IMG/VR virus record: IMGVR_UViG_3300021440_000009
Coordinates: 1-40,939 of that record
Strand: one strand, 5' to 3'
DNA from: a virus
Length of the DNA: 40,939 bases
Shown: in pieces, positions 1,656 through 40,939 of the stretch
Layout: each line of letters begins with the position of its first letter
Position numbering within the stretch: the first letter of the stretch is position 1
The notes under the pieces: model-generated
The model's database searches: none
What the model was told of the DNA's origin: nothing
What the model saw: only the letters and a program-made list of their open reading frames with translations
Program-made: the position numbers and the translations under genes

Positions 1656-1985
1656 ATGGAGCACAAACCGTTTTGTGACAAAGCAGTAGCTAAAGGTATT
1701 TCTGTTTCTTGTCAATGTAAGAACTTAGACTTTAGTCGTGCATTAGTTTTACTTAAGCACGGTAATAAAGTTGCTAGACAAGGCTGGAATGGTAAAGGTA
1801 TGTTTATTTTCTTAGTAGAAGGTAGCACTTTTACAGTTAATAGAAAGCCTTTATTAGGTATTTATCCAGAAGGTACTACTATAAACTACCGTTCTCATTT
1901 AGATATGGTAACAGTAGATGGATCAGTAGTGCCTTGGGTAATTTCACAAACTGATGCATTAGCAGAGGATTGGGAGGCAGTATGA
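1656..1985 (+). CDS. DUF2829 protein, candidate Tad2-type anti-Thoeris sponge, 109 aa
   Basis: Residues 24-109 match the DUF2829 pattern: DFSRALVLLKHGNKVARQGWNGKGMFIFLV, given here as DFSRALVLLK followed by VARQGWNGKGM, and a C-terminal DGSVVPWVISQTDALAEDW. DUF2829 is the Tad2 family. Characterised members bind the cyclic ADP-ribose-type signal made by Thoeris ThsB and so stop ThsA activation in the infected cell. Here residues 1-23 add a Cys-containing extension (C7, C19, C21) of unknown use. The gene sits between the helicase and a small gene, with GAGG before the ATG. Membership is strong; anti-Thoeris activity is inferred from the family, and not every DUF2829 protein has been tested. Confidence 0.85.
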   Translation: MEHKPFCDKAVAKGISVSCQCKNLDFSRALVLLKHGNKVARQGWNGKGMFIFLVEGSTFTVNRKPLLGIYPEGTTINYRSHLDMVTVDGSVVPWVISQTDALAEDWEAV

Positions 1986-3147: not shown

Positions 3148-3471
3148 ATGAACATAGTAGACAATAAATTAACTAAAGAATTACCTAATTTTACTTTTGT
3201 ACAAGTACAGTTTTTTCCTTACGATGGTAAAATTTACACCTATAAGACAGATTTGTTACTTAAAAGTGGTGATCTTGTTGTCGTGCAAGATCCTAATGGT
3301 GATTTTAAAGTTGTAAAAGTGTTTAGACTTATGTCTGATGCAAATAACTTTATACAGTATAAATGGATAGTAAGTAAACTAGAATTATCAGACTTTGAAA
3401 GAGTAAAAGAAGTAGAAAAGCATTTAGGGAATACTGTAGGACCAAATGATGAAGTAAAGGAAAGGCTATGA
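3148..3471 (+). CDS. Hypothetical small beta-barrel-like protein, 107 aa
   Basis: Unrecognised. Residues 20-65 read as consecutive beta strands (FVQVQFFP, YTYKTD, GDLVVVQDP, FKVVKVFRL), reminiscent of small barrel domains such as the 3'-binding domain of PriA or SH3-like folds. A charged helical C-terminus follows. AGGA lies 7 bases before the ATG. Its stop overlaps the polymerase start by 4 bases, so the two are coupled. A replication accessory role is only an inference from position. Confidence 0.75.
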   Translation: MNIVDNKLTKELPNFTFVQVQFFPYDGKIYTYKTDLLLKSGDLVVVQDPNGDFKVVKVFRLMSDANNFIQYKWIVSKLELSDFERVKEVEKHLGNTVGPNDEVKERL

Positions 3472-5180
3472 ACTATAAGCTAACTAATTTAGATGAAGTT
3501 AAAGCTTTATACGATCCTATTAACGAGCTGTCTTTTGACACTGAAACTTGTGGATTGTATGGCAAGATTAGGCTTGCGCAATTTTTCCAACCTAATTGGG
3601 AAGAAGTATTGTTAGTTGAATGGCCAAATCCTGCAAACTTAGCTTTGTTGCTTAGTCAGTGCAATATAGCTATGCATAATGCTCACTATGACTTAACAGT
3701 TGTACAAGAGCAGTTTATGCATGAATGGTTACCTAAAGAATTTGAAGACACTTTCTTACTTGCTCGTTTAGCTTTACCTGGATTAGAAAGTTACTCTTTT
3801 GATGATGTACTTCATCATGTTGTTGGCTTTGATCCATACGTACAAGCTAATTTAGCTAAGAAAGAACTTCAAAAATCTAAATGGGATACAAAAGTACTAA
3901 CTGAAGATCAGCTTATATACGCTGCACTAGACGTATATTATATGCCTGATGTGCTTAATGCAGTTAGATGTGCCGTAGACTCACCTAGTTATCAATTAGA
4001 TAAGCTAACACTAAGACATGCTTTGGTTATTCAATGGCACGGTATGCCTATTTGTCAAGATAGAATTAATAGTAAGTATTCAGAAAATCAACAAGTTATA
4101 GCTGAAGCTGCAGTACCTATTAATGTTAATTCTTGGCAACAAGTTAGACAGTATCTAAACTGCACTGAATCAGATGATGAAGCACTTGCTAGAATGTCCG
4201 CTAATGGAGATGAAAAAGCTGCTAAAGTACGTTTAGTTAGAAAGTTAAAGAAGCAACTAAGCTTCTTAGACAAATTTCAAGGCGAGCGTATTTATGGTAA
4301 GTTTAAACCTTCTGCTCGTTCTGGTAGACTTACATCAGATGACCAGAACTTACAGCAATTACCTAGAGCTTTGAAAGGAGTATTTTCTGCCCCTCCTGGA
4401 CGAGTGTTAGCGTATGCAGATTATGCTCAGCTTGAATTAAGAACTGTTTGTGCAATTACTGCTTGTAGAAGAATGGAAGCTTTATTTAGAGCAGGTGAAG
4501 ACTTGCATACTTATACAAGTGATTTCTTATTTGGTAAATCAGAAGATCCTGCAAAAGCTGACTACAATAGGCAAGTAAGCAAAGGTTGTAATTTCTTACT
4601 TCTCTATGGCGGTGGTATACCAATGTTCATTTCTGTTATGCTTAAGCAAATGAATATCTTCATGAAAGAAAGTGAAGCTATGGTAGCTCGTAAAAAGTGG
4701 CGAAACTTATGGACAGAGATTTTTGCTTGGCAACAACAAGGATTATCTAAGTGGCAGTTAGGTAAACTTGGTTCAACTCCTTTAGGTAGACAGTATAAAG
4801 CAGTATTGTTAACAGATTTTTTAAACATTGAAAACCAAGGTGCAGGTGCTGAAGTAGCTAAATTAGCTTTGCATTACTTTATGCGGGACTGCTTTGCTAA
4901 GTATCCAGGTCTATTAGTATGTAATTTCATCCACGACTCTTTTATACTTGAGTGCGATGATGATCAAGAAGTATACCAAGCAGTTAGTAAAGACTTAGCT
5001 AAGTGTATGCAATTAGCTTGGTTTGAGATGTCTAAATGTTTTAAAGTAAAAGATATTCCAATGCCTGTAGAAGTTAAAGTAGGTTATAATTGGGGTGATA
5101 TAGAAAGCAAGAAGATTGAAAAGGTTTATGAATATAAGTTAGATGGTTTAGTTTATTTAGGAGAAGCAAATGCACTTTGA
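3468..5180 (+). CDS. Family A DNA polymerase with 3'-5' exonuclease, 570 aa
   Basis: Phage replicative polymerase of the Pol I/T7 type. Exonuclease: DTET (D24, E26), NAHYD with D75, and YAALD with D155. Polymerase: SARSGRL at 282-288, motif A DYAQLELR (D318, E323), motif B R368...K372...F376...Y380, motif C IHDS (H489, D490, S491). There is no 5'-3' exonuclease domain. Phe376 at the O-helix position is the Pol I state rather than the T7 Tyr. Motif C has Ser where most family members have Glu after the catalytic Asp; all other key residues are present. The gene overlaps both neighbours. Assignment is firm. Confidence 0.96.
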   Translation: MNYKLTNLDEVKALYDPINELSFDTETCGLYGKIRLAQFFQPNWEEVLLVEWPNPANLALLLSQCNIAMHNAHYDLTVVQEQFMHEWLPKEFEDTFLLARLALPGLESYSFDDVLHHVVGFDPYVQANLAKKELQKSKWDTKVLTEDQLIYAALDVYYMPDVLNAVRCAVDSPSYQLDKLTLRHALVIQWHGMPICQDRINSKYSENQQVIAEAAVPINVNSWQQVRQYLNCTESDDEALARMSANGDEKAAKVRLVRKLKKQLSFLDKFQGERIYGKFKPSARSGRLTSDDQNLQQLPRALKGVFSAPPGRVLAYADYAQLELRTVCAITACRRMEALFRAGEDLHTYTSDFLFGKSEDPAKADYNRQVSKGCNFLLLYGGGIPMFISVMLKQMNIFMKESEAMVARKKWRNLWTEIFAWQQQGLSKWQLGKLGSTPLGRQYKAVLLTDFLNIENQGAGAEVAKLALHYFMRDCFAKYPGLLVCNFIHDSFILECDDDQEVYQAVSKDLAKCMQLAWFEMSKCFKVKDIPMPVEVKVGYNWGDIESKKIEKVYEYKLDGLVYLGEANAL

Positions 5181-5985
5181 AACAGAGTATTTTAAATTAG
5201 TATCTAGAGTATTAACTTACGGTTATATAATCAAAGGTCGTAATGGTTTTACAAGAAGTTTAATTGGTACACAGTTGCAATTTGATGTATCAGATTATGA
5301 CTTTCCTTTACTTAATTCTAGAAAGTATAGCTATAAAGGTGTGTTAGGTGAGTTTGCAGCTTTATTACGAGGTCCTAAAACACTAGAAGACTTTATTAAG
5401 TTTGGTTGTAACTATTGGGCTAAGTGGGCTGAGCAAGATTTGTCTATTAATGTAGATTATGGTAATGCTTGGTTAGACTTTAACGGGGTTAATCAACTTG
5501 AATGGTTAGTTAATGAAATTAAAAACAATCCTTCAAGTCGTAGATTAGTAATATCAGGATGGAAGCCAGACAACGTTATAAACAACAAGTTATCATTACC
5601 TTGTTGTCATTACTCTTATCAGTTTCTAGTTCGCAATGACGAATTGCATATTGTCTGGATTCAACGAAGTGCTGATGTAATGATAGGTATACCTGCTGAT
5701 GCAGTTTTAGCAGCTACTTGGCTTATCATGTTAGCTAATGAATGTGGTTTGCATCCTGGAACTGTTACAATGCAATTTGCAGATACTCATATCTATGAAG
5801 AGCACATTGACCAAGCTAAAAGATTAGTAGAAGTATTCACTGAAGCTAGTAGTTATGCGCAACCTAAAGTAACTTGGGCTATTAGGTCACAACAAGGTAG
5901 TAAACTTATAGACTTTGTTCCAACAGACTTAGAGATTAAATATGCTCCTTATGGTGCACCAATTAACTTCTTACTTAAGGAATAG
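5170..5985 (+). CDS. ThyA-fold pyrimidine C5 transferase, likely dCMP hydroxymethylase/methylase rather than thymidylate synthase, 271 aa
   Basis: Full-length thymidylate synthase fold that aligns with E. coli ThyA almost without shift: nucleophile C146 in LPCCHYSYQF, phosphate-site R124/R125 in SSRR, QRSADV at 165-170, H207 and Y209 in DTHIYEEH, and E61 in GEFAALL. At the position of E. coli Asn177, which reads uracil N3/O4, this protein has Asp177 (GIPAD). The same change distinguishes T4 dCMP hydroxymethylase (Asp179) and converts thymidylate synthase toward dCMP in published mutants. The predicted substrate is therefore dCMP with methylenetetrahydrofolate. Next door lie a MazG-like pyrophosphatase and dCMP deaminase. 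The fold is certain; hydroxymethyl versus methyl transfer cannot be read from the sequence. Confidence 0.85.
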   Translation: MHFETEYFKLVSRVLTYGYIIKGRNGFTRSLIGTQLQFDVSDYDFPLLNSRKYSYKGVLGEFAALLRGPKTLEDFIKFGCNYWAKWAEQDLSINVDYGNAWLDFNGVNQLEWLVNEIKNNPSSRRLVISGWKPDNVINNKLSLPCCHYSYQFLVRNDELHIVWIQRSADVMIGIPADAVLAATWLIMLANECGLHPGTVTMQFADTHIYEEHIDQAKRLVEVFTEASSYAQPKVTWAIRSQQGSKLIDFVPTDLEIKYAPYGAPINFLLKE

Positions 5986-5987
5986 TT

Positions 5988-6545
5988 ATGTTTGATATAA
6001 TTGGCTCAAGAGTAAGTAATTGGAATAATCTTCGTTATGCTAGAGAATATAATGAAGAGTTAGCTATAGCTTTGCTAAAAGAAGAATTAGCCGAGTTTGA
6101 AGTAGGGGATGAAATTGAACGCATAGATGCCTTATGCGATGTTATATTTGTAGCTTGTGGAGTTGTGTGGAAGCTTGGTTTGGAAATTTGCCCACAAACC
6201 ATAAATAGCTTTAAAGCATATTACCAGTATAATCCGTTCAATGTTAGAGATACTGGAGCTAATACAATAGCATTAGTTAGACAAATGCCTGGGTCTTTAC
6301 TTGTTGCTACTAATATGCATGCACTTATAGCAGCTTGCTTTGTAGGTCTAAGTTTTTACTTTGATTCTGAAGACTATGCTTATAAAGCAGTATTAGCTAT
6401 ATGCGATAGTAATGACACAAAAGAAGTGGTTAAAACTACTTCTGATGTAAAAGCAAACGGGTCTTATAAAGGTCCTAACTATGTTTCACCAACAGCTGCA
6501 CTTAACCAACTAGTAAAGGAGTGTTTCGATGTCGAATGTCACTAA
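5988..6545 (+). CDS. MazG/PRA-PH-like all-alpha nucleotide pyrophosphohydrolase, 185 aa
   Basis: All-alpha NTP pyrophosphatase. The metal-binding pattern is visible as E32 E33 xx E36 followed by E44 xx D47 and D51 (KEELAEF...ERIDALCD). The C-terminal SND-TK and KGPNYVSP pieces are typical of phage members related to phosphoribosyl-ATP pyrophosphohydrolase. T4 gp56 dCTPase belongs to the same superfamily, so hydrolysis of dCTP to dCMP, which would feed the adjacent ThyA-like enzyme, is a reasonable inference. Alternative substrates are dUTP, aberrant nucleotides or alarmones. AAGGA precedes the ATG two bases after the upstream stop. A stretch at 70-135 is longer than in short MazG proteins. 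Confidence 0.85.
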   Translation: MFDIIGSRVSNWNNLRYAREYNEELAIALLKEELAEFEVGDEIERIDALCDVIFVACGVVWKLGLEICPQTINSFKAYYQYNPFNVRDTGANTIALVRQMPGSLLVATNMHALIAACFVGLSFYFDSEDYAYKAVLAICDSNDTKEVVKTTSDVKANGSYKGPNYVSPTAALNQLVKECFDVECH

Positions 6546-6792
6546 AACTTTAAAAGGTCGTGGTAAAACTCATGGAGAATTTAGTATCAATTCTCAAATT
6601 AGTCAAGACCTAAAAGCAGTATTAAAAGCAAGTCCTAACTGGGATACTCTTTCACCAGATAAGAAAGAATCCTTAGAGATGATGTGTCACAAGATGGCTC
6701 GTATCTGTACAGGTAATGCAGAAGAAAAAGACCATTGGCATGATATTGCAGGTTATTCTACTTTATCGGAAAATCGTTGTGTCAGTCAATAA
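6529..6792 (+). CDS. DUF6378-type phage protein, 87 aa
   Basis: Matches a small, widespread phage family (DUF6378) by its pattern: a HGEFSINSQISQDLK start, a central NWDTLSPDKKESLEMMCHK helix and the terminal HWHDIAGYSTL. Biochemical function is not known to me. Members are usually found near replication or nucleotide genes, as here. AAGGAG is 7 bases from the ATG. It overlaps the MazG-like gene by 17 bases and the deaminase by 14 bases, so the three are probably translated together. Confidence 0.8.
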   Translation: MSNVTKTLKGRGKTHGEFSINSQISQDLKAVLKASPNWDTLSPDKKESLEMMCHKMARICTGNAEEKDHWHDIAGYSTLSENRCVSQ

Positions 6793-7219
6793 GTGGCATA
6801 AACGTTTCATGAAGCTAGCTAATGAAGTAGCTTCATGGAGTAAAGACCCAGACTCTAAAGTAGGTGCAGTATTAATTTCACCTGACAAAACTAAAGTTAG
6901 TTATGGATATAACGGTTTTCCTAGGAATTTACCAGACTCTGAAGATTTGTTAAGAGATAAAGATGCTAAGTTAGCTCTTACAGTACATGCAGAACTTAAC
7001 TGTATCTTAAACGCAACACAAACTAAAGGTTGGTCTTTGTATACTACTAAACCACCTTGTTTACAATGTGCATTAGCTATAGTTCAGTCTGGTGCTAACT
7101 TAGTTGTTTGTCCACCTTTAGATATCACTAGCTCTTGGTATAAAGAGCAACTTGAAGCTATTAGTATTTTACAGTTAGCTCAATGTAAAGTATTATTTTT
7201 AGGAGATTTAAATGACTGA
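6779..7219 (+). CDS. dCMP deaminase, 146 aa
   Basis: Zinc-dependent deaminase converting dCMP to dUMP. Visible: N-terminal KWHKRFMKLANEVASWSKDP typical of phage dCMP deaminases (shown by KWHKRFM and WSKDP), zinc motif HAE at about 70-72 with the proton-shuttle Glu, and PCLQC at about 93-97. The GTG at 6779 is chosen because it keeps the conserved N-terminal helix and has GGAAA upstream; the next ATG (6809) would delete it. The start overlaps the previous gene by 14 bases. If the ThyA-like neighbour uses dCMP, this enzyme would compete for the same pool and supply dUMP to host thymidylate synthase, as in T4. Confidence 0.92.
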   Translation: MSVNKWHKRFMKLANEVASWSKDPDSKVGAVLISPDKTKVSYGYNGFPRNLPDSEDLLRDKDAKLALTVHAELNCILNATQTKGWSLYTTKPPCLQCALAIVQSGANLVVCPPLDITSSWYKEQLEAISILQLAQCKVLFLGDLND

Positions 7220-32308: not shown

Positions 32309-32830
32309 ATGACAATCAAAAAAGCTTTCAATCCAATCTTTGATCTTTTAACTGCTAATCCTGATGCTTTAGTTAAAGATCTTCTACCCCAATTAACTGC
32401 TCTTATGAGTTCTTCTAATACAGTAGGTCAAACAAGCTATAAAGATGAGCAAGGCAATGTAATAGCGATCTATTGTTATTACCATAAGAAGTGGGAGCTC
32501 ATTGCAAACCATGAATATGGTGTTAAAGTAGGTTCCTCAACAGGACTAAATACAATGTGTAAGTTGGGGGTGTCAGAGTGGACTAAACAACAACGTAAAG
32601 CTAAGCAAGCAGGAGAACTATTACTTAAAGGTTTAACTGATGGTACTGTTCAAGTAAGTGACTTAGTACTTAGACAAGAAGAGATTGAAAATCAAAGAAC
32701 TTCTATAATTTATGCTGAATCTTACTCAAACTTCTTTGAAACTTTGGATGAGCTAAAGATGTCACTAGATTCTACTAAAAGTGTCAAGAAAGCTAAGGGT
32801 GTCAAAGCTAAAGATAAGGTTGAAATTTGA
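32309..32830 (+). CDS. Conserved phage protein, paralog of the 33942 gene, 173 aa
   Basis: Not a family I can name. Residues 43-125 align well with residues 55-135 of the 33942 product: NVIAIYCYYHKKW versus VVVAIRDFYFGKW, STGLNTMCKLGVSEWTKQQR versus PSGYNSMCKVGLNQWTKQQR, and a helix with ELLLKGLTDGTV versus ELLKQVASGDV. The invariant GxNxMCKxGxxxWTKQQR block looks like the functional core. N-terminal helix binds nothing obvious; the C-terminus is Lys-rich (VKKAKGVKAKDK), consistent with nucleic-acid binding. Single-gene transcription unit with its own promoter. Shine-Dalgarno is weak. Function unknown. Confidence 0.85.
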   Translation: MTIKKAFNPIFDLLTANPDALVKDLLPQLTALMSSSNTVGQTSYKDEQGNVIAIYCYYHKKWELIANHEYGVKVGSSTGLNTMCKLGVSEWTKQQRKAKQAGELLLKGLTDGTVQVSDLVLRQEEIENQRTSIIYAESYSNFFETLDELKMSLDSTKSVKKAKGVKAKDKVEI

Positions 32831-33941: not shown

Positions 33942-34427
33942 ATGAAAATCAAGAAAGTGTATATTGCAATTTTAGCTATGCTTGAACAAGCTGTTGCAGA
34001 CAATGCAAAGGTTCGTGTTGCTGATGTGTTGGATCAAGTACGTGAGTTAGCTAAAGCTCGTGTAGGTGAAGGTGGTGGCGGACGTGCAACAACTTTCCAT
34101 AAAAATGCTGAAGGTGTTGTTGTAGCTATTCGGGACTTCTACTTTGGCAAATGGTTTGACCCTCGTGTTGTAGAGACTGGAGTTAAAGCTAATACTCCGA
34201 GTGGTTATAACTCTATGTGCAAAGTTGGTCTTAACCAATGGACTAAGCAACAACGTGTAGCTAAGTTAGCTCGTGAAGAATTGCTTAAGCAAGTAGCAAG
34301 TGGTGATGTGGCACCTGACGCGATCGGAGCTCAGTTAGAAGTAATTGAAGAAGCTCGCAATGCAGTGATTGAGACAGATTTACCAATGTATGACTCATTG
34401 GATGACTTGTTAGCTACACAAGCATAA
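33942..34427 (+). CDS. Conserved phage protein, paralog of the 32309 gene, 161 aa
   Basis: Paralog of the 32309 product (see there); the block SGYNSMCKVGLNQWTKQQR is nearly the same. This copy has a different, Ala/Val/Arg-rich helical N-terminus with a Gly run (GEGGGGRATTFHKN) and an acidic end (YDSLDDLLATQA) instead of a Lys-rich one, so the two have specialised. It has its own promoter, hairpin leader, a good AGGAAAG ribosome site and a strong terminator 8 bases after the stop, which makes it a one-gene unit probably expressed at a high level. Function unknown. Confidence 0.88.
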   Translation: MKIKKVYIAILAMLEQAVADNAKVRVADVLDQVRELAKARVGEGGGGRATTFHKNAEGVVVAIRDFYFGKWFDPRVVETGVKANTPSGYNSMCKVGLNQWTKQQRVAKLAREELLKQVASGDVAPDAIGAQLEVIEEARNAVIETDLPMYDSLDDLLATQA

Positions 34428-34487: not shown

Positions 34488-35087
34488 ATGACAAAGTTAG
34501 AAGAACTATTAACTTGGTGTAAAGACAAGACACTACCAAAGCCAGACCTCTGTGGTGCAGACCTCCGTTATGCAGACCTCAGTGGTGCAGACCTCCGTTA
34601 TGCAGACCTCAGTGGTACAAACCTCCGTTATGCAGACCTCAGTGGTGCAGACCTCAGTGGTACAAACCTCCGTTATGCAGACCTCTGTGGTGCAGACCTC
34701 TGTGGTGCAGACCTCCGTTATGCAGACCTCTGTGGTGCAGACCTCTGTGGTGCAGACCTCAGTGGTGCAGACCTCAGTGGTACAAACCTCAGTGGTGCAG
34801 ACCTAAGTGGTACAAACCTCAGTGGTGCAGACCTCAGTGGTACAAACCTTAATTCAACTATTGGTAATTGTGTTAGAATATTTAGCTTACAACTTCCCGC
34901 ATATAAAGTTACTATATTAGATAAAGAAGTTATGCAAATTGGCTGTAAAAGATTCACAATTCAAGAATGGGCTAACTTTGATGACAATGCAATAGCTAAA
35001 TTTGCATTAAATGCACTAACATTTTGGAAAACTAATAAAGAACTTATATTTAAATATATCGAGGTACTAAATGGCCAAGCTAATTGA
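34488..35087 (+). CDS. Pentapeptide-repeat protein, 199 aa
   Basis: Twenty uninterrupted pentapeptide units (residues 22-121), all of type [15 protein letters not shown] or SGTNL, predicted to fold as a right-handed quadrilateral beta-helix about five coils long. A 78-residue C-terminal domain follows ([21 protein letters not shown], seen as [19 protein letters not shown], and [17 protein letters not shown]), which is a recurrent phage pentapeptide-protein tail. Such beta-helices can mimic DNA (as in MfpA/Qnr), but a target here is not known. AGGAG lies 6 bases before the ATG. Confidence 0.92.
34551..34850 (+). repeat. 20 x 15-bp DNA repeat encoding the pentapeptides
   Basis: Exactly twenty 15-base units built from four words: CGTTATGCAGACCTC, AGTGGTGCAGACCTC, AGTGGTACAAACCTC and TGTGGTGCAGACCTC, with only one or two silent changes (CTA, CTT) at the 3' end. 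Codon choice is fixed, so the array has expanded recently by duplication or slippage. This also keeps other frames open; those are not genes. Confidence 0.95.
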
Positions 35088-38463: not shown

Positions 38464-38742
38464 ATGAAGCCAAGACGTAAGCTTCTTACATTGCAAGGCT
38501 ATAAATTGCTAAAAGCAGAGATTGATAGAGGAGTTCCGTTCAAAAGAGCTCTAGCAAATCTTAAGCTAAATGTAAGTGTTCCAACAGCTAAACAGCTTTA
38601 CCAATACGCAAGCGTAGATTCTCCGAACTTAAACCCAAAATGGCTAGATCAAGCTGGACCACTACTGCAAGAGTGTCCTAGTACTTGGCGATTCAAAGGC
38701 TTTTTTCCGTTGAAAGGAGAGTGGATTTGTTCACTACAATAA
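38464..38742 (+). CDS. Hypothetical basic protein, 92 aa
   Basis: GAAGGA is 7 bases before ATG 38464, better than an upstream in-frame TTG. Basic N-terminus (MKPRRKLLTLQGYKLLKAEI) and a helical middle with an HTH-like piece (VPFKRALANLKLNVSVPTAKQLYQY, seen as NVSVPTAKQLYQYAS), then a Trp-containing beta end. May bind DNA or regulate the primase gene whose start it overlaps by 16 bases. No family recognised. Confidence 0.75.
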   Translation: MKPRRKLLTLQGYKLLKAEIDRGVPFKRALANLKLNVSVPTAKQLYQYASVDSPNLNPKWLDQAGPLLQECPSTWRFKGFFPLKGEWICSLQ

Positions 38743-40939
38743 AAGAATATATTGACCTGGGTTGGTACACTGTACCGCTAGGTGGGCAATTAAAAAGATT
38801 GCCAGATGGTAGTAAGACAGAACCGCAGTTTGAGAAGAATTGGAAACTAAAGTACTCTCAAGAGTTCAATAAAAAGGAGACTCCATTAGGTGGGGTTATT
38901 ACGGGAAAAATCTCTAATATAGTGGCGGTGGACTGTGATAACGATATTACTTGGGATATGTTTAGTGCTCTTGCTGGGAGTGAGGCTGTCGTATTTAGGA
39001 GCAAAGGCAAAGGCTCCAAGGTCTGTGGTACCTTTATTTTTAGGTTTAGCGATGATATATGTAGCAGTTTTAATGTCGCTGATGGCACTATGGCACTGGA
39101 CTTCTATAATGAAAATGGCTTTGTTTATTTACCCACTGTAGCTAATGAGACGAAACACTTATTAGAAGCAATACCAGTTGTAACTGAAATGCCTAAAACT
39201 ATTAAGGTTTTACTTCAAAATCTTAAGCAATCAGTTGAAGCTAGTAAAAGCACTATTGGTATTGAACACAGAATAGTAAGCACAGCAATGTGTTTGCAGC
39301 CCTTAGTTCAGCAGTTTACAGATTTAAGAAAGTTCTTACCAGGTTTATTTAAGATCATTACACCTAAGGACTTTAGATCAGAGGCACAATATGTTAAGCA
39401 AGGCTATTTACATCCTAACAATGTGCCTGAAGGTAGAGGTAGTGAATATCTAACTAAAGTATCTGCAATACTTGGTGCTGATATTAGTATAGATGCAGAA
39501 CTTTATACATCAGCAATGCACGACATAAATAACTTGTGGGATTCACCTATGGACCCTGCAAGATTAGATAAGACTATTCTTGATCCTATGGTGTTAGGTA
39601 AGTCTTCTATAGATGGAAGAACAATATGGCAGTATGATGAAAACTGGATGCAACGTAGACTAGTATTAAGGACTAAGCGGCAATCTTCTATTGAGGTAGG
39701 TTTTGATGACCGTAGAGATAGCTATTATGTTGTTGATATAGCTAACCAGTATGTTAAAAGTTTCTACCGTGATAATGACTTACAAGCATATCTAGAAGCT
39801 TCTGCATTTGCTACACCTAAGAAAGCAGATTTAAAGAAAGTTATTCCTTTGCTAAACGTTACGAGTAAACCTGGGTTAGCTTTTGGCTTTCATGAAGGGT
39901 ATGAAGACGTTAGAGAACTGAATACGTTTATAAGAACACCTGAGTTAGCTATTATTAATGACCCAGACTCTTATAAGCAGTTTTATAAAACACCCGGGAC
40001 TATACTTAAGTTTTTAGAAACACTAATACCTGAAGCACCAATGAGAAAGTATTTGCTAAAGTTTCTTAAACGCAAATTTAAAACTTTTGACTATAGCCCA
40101 GTAATTCTGTACTTCTTAGGTGTACATGGTTCTGGTAAAGATACTTTTGTTGAAATTATACAGCAGATAATGGGTAGTATAACTAAGCCAACAACTAGAG
40201 AATTTCTAGAAATGTACAATGCTTGGTTGATGGATAGCTACTTTGTACAATTAGATGAGTACGGTAACCAGTTAACTAATATTAGAGATAAAGAAGAAGT
40301 CTTAGGTAAGTTAAAGACTTATACAGGCTCTCCTACTGTACAGATTAGACAAATGCGTACAGACTCTTTTACTTATAAGCATAGTGCTACTTTTATAATG
40401 ACGGCAAACAAACAACCTCTTATGCTAGAGGATGGAGATAGACGCATTATATTCTTTAGCACCCCCAATGTGTTAAAAGAAGCTGACTGGGTTCAGGATG
40501 TAGTAGAAACTAGAGAGCAGATATTTAGAGAGATTAAAGACTTCTGTTATTATTTGGCTGTTGAAGTGCAAGACATAGCTAATGCAGATTATGTGTCACC
40601 CCCAGAGTCTAAAGAAAAGAACAAGTTAATAGCAGATAGTATGCATCCTGCAGCTAAGTTAGCTTATGTGCTTAAGCATAAGATGCTAGAGTATTTAAAA
40701 GAGTTAGCTATAGATCATAACTCAACTAAGTTAGCGGAAGCAATAGATAGAGGTAGAGTGTATACTACTGACTTAGAAGATATTTATGGTATAATGACAG
40801 ACTTCAATGGTGATATGCGCTCATTAAATAAAGTTATTAAAGCAGCAGGAATAAATGTTAGACCGACTACTATAAATGGTTCTAAAGCTTATTATTACGA
40901 TTTATGGTTTGACAATCCTTTTGAGGAGCATAATGATGA
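38727..40939 (+). CDS. Primase-polymerase/SF3 helicase (DUF5906), partial at window edge
   Basis: N-terminal prim-pol domain (residues 1 to about 170): GWYTVPLGG, then GGVITGKIS and VAVDCDND with metal-binding D69 and D71. The SF3/D5-like helicase (DUF5906 type) has Walker A GVHGSGKDT at about 465-473, VQLDE as Walker B and MTANKQPLMLEDGDRRIIFF, seen as TANKQPLMLEDGDRR, as the sensor/arginine region. TTG at 38727 is chosen: AAGGAG is 7 bases upstream, whereas the GTG at 38721 lies on the ribosome site. The frame continues to bases 94-97 across the circular junction, giving 738 residues. It primes and unwinds DNA for the family A polymerase. Confidence 0.92.
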   Translation, partial: MFTTIKEYIDLGWYTVPLGGQLKRLPDGSKTEPQFEKNWKLKYSQEFNKKETPLGGVITGKISNIVAVDCDNDITWDMFSALAGSEAVVFRSKGKGSKVCGTFIFRFSDDICSSFNVADGTMALDFYNENGFVYLPTVANETKHLLEAIPVVTEMPKTIKVLLQNLKQSVEASKSTIGIEHRIVSTAMCLQPLVQQFTDLRKFLPGLFKIITPKDFRSEAQYVKQGYLHPNNVPEGRGSEYLTKVSAILGADISIDAELYTSAMHDINNLWDSPMDPARLDKTILDPMVLGKSSIDGRTIWQYDENWMQRRLVLRTKRQSSIEVGFDDRRDSYYVVDIANQYVKSFYRDNDLQAYLEASAFATPKKADLKKVIPLLNVTSKPGLAFGFHEGYEDVRELNTFIRTPELAIINDPDSYKQFYKTPGTILKFLETLIPEAPMRKYLLKFLKRKFKTFDYSPVILYFLGVHGSGKDTFVEIIQQIMGSITKPTTREFLEMYNAWLMDSYFVQLDEYGNQLTNIRDKEEVLGKLKTYTGSPTVQIRQMRTDSFTYKHSATFIMTANKQPLMLEDGDRRIIFFSTPNVLKEADWVQDVVETREQIFREIKDFCYYLAVEVQDIANADYVSPPESKEKNKLIADSMHPAAKLAYVLKHKMLEYLKELAIDHNSTKLAEAIDRGRVYTTDLEDIYGIMTDFNGDMRSLNKVIKAAGINVRPTTINGSKAYYYDLWFDNPFEEHND
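40847..40939. repeat. Direct terminal repeat, right copy (93 bp)
   Basis: Identical to bases 1-93. It lies wholly inside the primase/helicase coding region. Removing one copy gives a 40,846-bp circle in which every gene is intact. Confidence 0.97.

Follow-up and report, generated by a model that had tools for sequence, protein, structure and literature searches.

A thymidylate synthase-like phage protein with Asp177 is a predicted dCMP C5-methyltransferase

Which nucleotide does the thymidylate synthase-like protein encoded by this phage genome modify, and does the product enter the phage DNA? The window, i.e., the whole stretch of DNA analysed here, is a viral record of 40,939 bases with a GC content of 34.8%, and its gene order and content match those of the podovirus MW202665 (Manatee Spring). 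Based on an Asn177-to-Asp change, an earlier note had proposed that the protein is a dCMP hydroxymethylase or methylase, which an automatic label of thymidylate synthase would hide. The gene and its key codons are as follows.

5170..5985 (+), thymidylate synthase (TS)-fold protein of 271 residues, predicted dCMP C5-methyltransferase (PF00303, site residues, clade, AlphaFold2 model)
5596..5607 (+), codons 143-146, Leu-Pro-Cys-Cys, with the catalytic Cys146 (sequence, alignment)
5698..5700 (+), codon 177, GAT encoding Asp, the base-reading residue (sequence, alignments)

The open reading frame starts with ATG and overlaps the 3' end of the frame of a family A DNA polymerase (3468..5180, +). Residues 6-257 of its product match the Pfam family Thymidylat_synt (PF00303) with an E-value of 8e-55, and alignments showed that the superfamily residues, the catalytic Cys146 and the ligands of phosphate and sugar Arg166, Asp169, His207 and Tyr209, are all present. 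Residues are numbered after E. coli ThyA, with which Cys146, His207 and Tyr209 of the window protein coincide, just as the earlier note had read them. The AlphaFold2 model adopts the canonical fold, with a pLDDT of 94.5 and a pTM of 0.92, and its best 50 fold matches in the PDB are all TSs or their fusions with dihydrofolate reductase (DHFR), at a TM of about 0.9. In addition, alignment showed that the protein keeps the C-terminal tail of TS, which is absent from T4 gp42.

Elsewhere in the window, the gene at 1656-1985 (+) encodes a Tad2-like domain protein (PF11195, E-value 3e-23) and is a candidate anti-Thoeris counter-defence gene, and the genes at 32309-32830 (+) and 33942-34427 (+) encode paralogous proteins, both assigned to PHROG 10459. 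The pentapeptide-repeat protein at 34488-35087 (+) has near-perfect A(D/N)L repeats and is a possible DNA mimic. A primase/helicase-like frame at 38685-40939 (+) continues past the contig end; the genome is probably circularly permuted, with the cut of the record falling within this gene or immediately behind it.

Residue 177 is Asn in E. coli ThyA, T4-type td and most ThyA-like viral proteins in the alignment. The Asn177 that marks a dUMP-using TS is replaced by Asp in the window protein and in all 80 relatives fetched by a scan of viral contigs (IMG/VR), which share 40-54% identity with it. Leu143, Pro144, Cys145, Cys146, His147 and Trp163 are likewise invariant in 80/80, whereas residue 92 is Val, Leu or Ile; the resulting clade motif LPCCH, with Cys145, differs from the usual L-x-P-C-H and had escaped the earlier note. 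The same residue pattern is found in seven GenBank relatives, namely the two Manatee Spring genomes MW202665 and MW202744, PH1, Kolga, Amaethon, KF-1 and VPMS1, bringing Asp177 to 87 of the 87 relatives checked. The MW202665 protein is 95.6% identical to the window protein. Since Asp177 is invariant across a large and divergent clade, it appears to be under selection, and its retention by drift or chance is unlikely. Most relatives are annotated as ‘thymidylate synthase’ and one in GenBank as ‘pyrimidine hmase’, in line with the suspicion that automatic labels hide the function. Moreover, a search of bacterial and archaeal genome assemblies yielded only three relatives, all on contigs of uncultured genomes and possibly phage themselves, so the clade looks viral.

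The earlier note had proposed an alignment and a tree as checks. The tree, built without columns 92, 143-147, 163 and 177, is unrooted and shows groupings rather than the number of changes at Asn177. Three groups split off in it, each at 100/100: the window clade with 29 rows, the gp42 type with 16 and the AXL1/Xp12 type with 6. The Xp12 type is represented by AXL1 of the same phage group rather than by the Xp12 sequence. The window protein lies outside the Asn177 TSs and groups neither with T4 gp42 nor with the Xp12-like proteins; because the three clades are separate, it belongs neither to the T4-type hydroxymethylases nor to the Xp12 lineage. The same chemistry in the window clade and the Xp12 type would be convergent or ancient. 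Two further groups combining Leu143 and Asp177 lie outside the clade. One is the td-type TS of some T4-like phages (L285-L287, 5001-5861), with the motif GLPFD, which represents a separate natural N177D change. The other, within L320-L341, has the motif GLPYD (L320, L322-L326, L332-L337, L340 and L341). Neither has a pyrophosphatase or deaminase gene nearby.

The replacement N177D alone has been reported to shift TS to dCMP, yielding 5-methyl-dCMP (PMC8670742). MetaGPA separated the TS homologs of cytosine-modified contigs from those of unmodified ones chiefly by Asp177, with position 147 as the second-best marker of modified contigs (PMC8670742). This second marker gives the window clade no support, because His147 of E. 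coli ThyA is retained. With an invariant Asp, a clade apart from the Asn177 synthases and a published marker, the predicted switch to dCMP is well supported, and the enzyme in all likelihood reads dCMP rather than dUMP.

Downstream of the TS-like gene lie further genes related to nucleotide metabolism.

5988..6545 (+), all-alpha NTP-pyrophosphatase (PPase; MazG/dimeric dUTPase-like), candidate dCTP remover (PHROG 671, E-value 3.5e-10)
6529..6792 (+), small protein of family DUF6378, encoded between the PPase and deaminase genes (PF19905, E-value 2.5e-5, just under the cut-off)
6809..7219 (+), dCMP deaminase (PF00383, E-value 7e-20; PHROG 174, E-value 9e-38; so annotated in MW202665)

The PPase frame starts 2 bases downstream of the TS-like gene, and its E-E-x-x-E...D motif is conserved in 23 relatives. 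It is homologous to AXL1 gp64, the PPase beside the TS-like gene of AXL1 (hhalign E-value 3e-7), and gives a weak fold match to dimeric dUTPases; hhalign detected no homology to the dCTP pyrophosphatase T4 gp56 (probability 0.3%). The deaminase, about 0.8 kb downstream of the TS-like gene, displays the zinc motifs HAE and PCxxC; its frame opens at 6716, and the start at 6809 was set by comparison with MW202665. Among loci flanked on each side by 2.5 kb or more, a PPase was found within 2.5 kb in 25/31 of the window clade (22 of them within 50 nt), 8/8 of the AXL1/Xp12 type, 21/46 of the gp42 type, 2/101 of the Asn177 homologs and 0/9 of the other Leu143+Asp177 homologs, and a deaminase in 21/31, 8/8, 18/46, 3/101 and 0/9, respectively. 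These counts are not independent, given the common descent within each clade; they are useful in showing that Asp177 lineages separate from each other have the same partner genes.

From the fold, site residues, clade and gene order read in the DNA, we infer the substrate, the product and its entry into DNA. We propose that the window protein is a dCMP C5-methyltransferase that feeds 5-methylcytosine (5mC) into the phage DNA, a pathway to which, as a whole, we assign a probability of about 0.55. Cys146 would attack C6 of dCMP, whereas Asp177, in place of Asn, would pair with and protonate the cytosine ring; 5,10-methylene-tetrahydrofolate (THF) would then donate the methylene and subsequently a hydride, giving 5-methyl-dCMP and dihydrofolate. 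The PPase probably converts dCTP to dCMP, which would both feed the methylase and keep plain dC out of the DNA, and the deaminase may either supply dUMP for thymidylate or deaminate 5-methyl-dCMP. Host kinases would phosphorylate the product, and the phage polymerase would use 5-methyl-dCTP to make 5mC-containing DNA that resists restriction.

The last step of this pathway, 5mC in virion DNA, has roughly even odds, as the adjacent deaminase offers the product another fate. The window has slightly fewer six-base palindromes containing C/G than expected (365 seen against 413) and no such deficit of A/T-only ones, a weak sign that is slightly contrary to protected cytosine. Among cultured relatives, the only published digest found is that of VPMS1 DNA with HhaI, and the text of the paper gives no VPMS1 band sizes (PMC4870561). 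The VPMS1 sequence has 148 GCGC (HhaI) sites, with no predicted fragment above 1.8 kb. Full 5mC should block HhaI, and the digest might contradict it, although the case is ambiguous. In the whole genome of Vibrio phage VPMS1 (L342), GATC is nearly missing, with 3 sites and an observed/expected ratio of 0.04, compared to 0.8 in the window; this scarcity suggests strong selection against a GATC-directed system.

Alternatively, 5-methyl-dCMP might be mainly an intermediate that the deaminase turns into dTMP, completing a two-step route that bypasses dUMP, with virion cytosine remaining ordinary. Consistent with such a route, the deaminase gene is close by, and in the relatives L044, L062 and L065 it directly follows the TS-like gene, with no PPase detected. 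Each of the 26 near-complete clade genomes has a single TS homolog and lacks ThyX, which leaves it without any other TS and fits either a DNA or a dTMP fate; DHFR, taken as a marker of dihydrofolate-making chemistry, occurs in only 3/26 and is not informative. Furthermore, searches of the window for a T4-like kinase (PF21448) or a CMP kinase acting on 5-methyl-dCMP gave no match, nor did a search of 30 phage records for a T4-type kinase, so that phosphorylation would fall to a host kinase. Xp12 was the subject of a 1982 paper entitled ‘A new thymidylate biosynthesis’. However, the same gene trio occurs in the Xp12 group, whose DNA is modified, the PPase would be needless beyond the supply of dCMP, and both fates of 5-methyl-dCMP can coexist. 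We regard a mainly intermediate role as unlikely.

Less probable still is an ordinary TS that tolerates Asp177 and uses dUMP supplied by the PPase and the deaminase. The fold, Leu143, His147 and the tail are all TS-like, and the two neighbours could equally yield dUMP. Moreover, the other N177D groups lack both genes nearby, so Asp177 might in some cases occur without DNA modification. Nevertheless, N177D in TS is reported to shift the preference to dCMP (PMC8670742), and the invariance of Asp in a large clade whose members are about 40-55% identical to the window protein suggests selection.

Given dCMP as the substrate, the residues around the active site bear on the product. Hydroxymethylases carry a signature made up of an Asp or Glu at the third position ahead of the catalytic Cys and a Ser or Thr at the second position ahead of the catalytic Tyr (PMC6400193). 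In T4 gp42 that acid activates the water that ends up as the hydroxyl, and the mutant D145N forms no 5-hydroxymethyl-dCMP (PMC6400193; gp42 ternary structure). The window protein shares Asp177 with the T4-type enzymes but has neither element of the signature, with Leu143 in place of the acid and an aliphatic residue 92; the bearing of Leu143 on this choice had been missed by the earlier note. As controls, 57 sequences of the gp42 type have Asp143 and Ser92, T4 gp42 itself combines Asp143 with Asp177, SP8 gp29, the only PF00303 protein of the SP8 genome, has Asp143 and Asn177, and TSs have Leu143 and Asn177. SP8 is a phage with 5-hydroxymethyluracil (5hmU) DNA. Since all three combinations occur, positions 143 and 177 vary independently; judged from these sequences, position 143 goes with hydroxymethylation and position 177 with the base. 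The rule for position 143 is incomplete, as AXL1 combines Asp177 with Asn143 and Ser92 and is related to the 5mC phage Xp12.

Of the earlier proposal of a hydroxymethylase or methylase, the switch to dCMP and the methylase half stand, and the hydroxymethylase half falls on residues 143 and 92 and the tail; because only the latter half fails the published residue test (PMC6400193), the sequence favours a methylase. A dCMP hydroxymethylase like T4 gp42, with 5-hydroxymethylcytosine in the phage DNA, is highly improbable: Asp177 corresponds to gp42 Asp179 and one relative bears the name ‘pyrimidine hmase’, but the acid that D145N removes in T4 is missing in 80/80 relatives, Ser/Thr92 is lacking, the tail is present, the protein lies outside the gp42 clade, and Leu143 and His147 match TSs. 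Residues 143 and 92, the C-terminal tail and the tree all speak against a T4-type enzyme. The product is very probably 5-methyl rather than 5-hydroxymethyl, if dCMP is indeed the substrate.

To our knowledge, complete replacement of cytosine by 5mC through nucleotide methylation is known mainly from Xp12. We tentatively suggest, at somewhat less than even odds, that widespread short-tailed phages and their relatives (freshwater, marine, gammaproteobacterial and Pelagibacter phages) swap cytosine for 5mC with a second dCMP methylase, TS-like and without a specific relationship to that of Xp12. If so, the clade enzyme would be nature's equivalent of the N177D TS made in the laboratory, pre-replicative cytosine modification by a TS fold would be spread over no fewer than three separate lineages of phages (T4, Xp12 and the window clade), and positions 143 and 177 would help to predict, for the family as a whole, which substrate is used and which product is made. 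Cultured carriers of the gene labelled ‘thymidylate synthase’ in GenBank make this testable, namely PH1, a Pseudoalteromonas phage of 42.7 kb with the host P. marina, and KF-1, ETP-1, VPMS1, Amaethon and Kolga. Should the DNA prove unmodified, the alternative of a dUMP-free thymidylate route would also be of interest. In GenBank, the name ‘thymidylate synthase’ would hide a natural dCMP methylase with a lineage of its own.

Among known systems, the Xp12 type (Xanthomonas phage Xp12; AXL1, DLP4 and PaMx28) shares Asp177, the TS fold and the predicted product 5-methyl-dCMP with the window protein. All cytosine of Xp12 is replaced by 5mC, and infected cells contain a THF-dependent deoxycytidylate methyltransferase (PMC8543423; PMC7653180), and AXL1 (PMC9206674) and DLP4 (PMC6469090) of the same group resist most of the restriction enzymes tested. 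In AXL1 and DLP4 the deaminase, TS homolog and PPase genes lie side by side, and at the window locus an Asp177 protein is likewise encoded near a PPase and a dCMP deaminase. However, the window protein is only 26% identical to the AXL1-type protein of L095, and the clades are separate; the AXL1 type has Asn143, Pro147 and Ser/Ala/Thr92, compared to Leu143, Cys145 and His147 in the window clade, and in AXL1 a DHFR gene also adjoins the TS-like gene. T4 gp42 has Asp177, Cys146, Glu58 and the PF00303 fold in common with the window protein, which differs in lacking Asp143 and Ser92, in its C-terminal tail and in its clade. The TS homologs found by MetaGPA on cytosine-modified contigs share Asp177 and co-occur with a deaminase and a phosphoribosyl-ATP pyrophosphohydrolase-type (MazG superfamily) domain (PMC8670742), although no carbamoyltransferase was found among the window proteins scanned. 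The ThyA type (E. coli ThyA, T4 td) resembles the window protein in Leu143, His147, the tail and the nearest PDB folds, but the window protein has Asp for Asn177, Cys for Pro145 and a deep separate clade. The same key change in an otherwise TS-like active site is found in the engineered enzymes N177D (E. coli) and N229D (L. casei), for which dCMP methylase activity has been reported (PMC8670742); these are laboratory mutants, whereas the combination in the window is natural and conserved.
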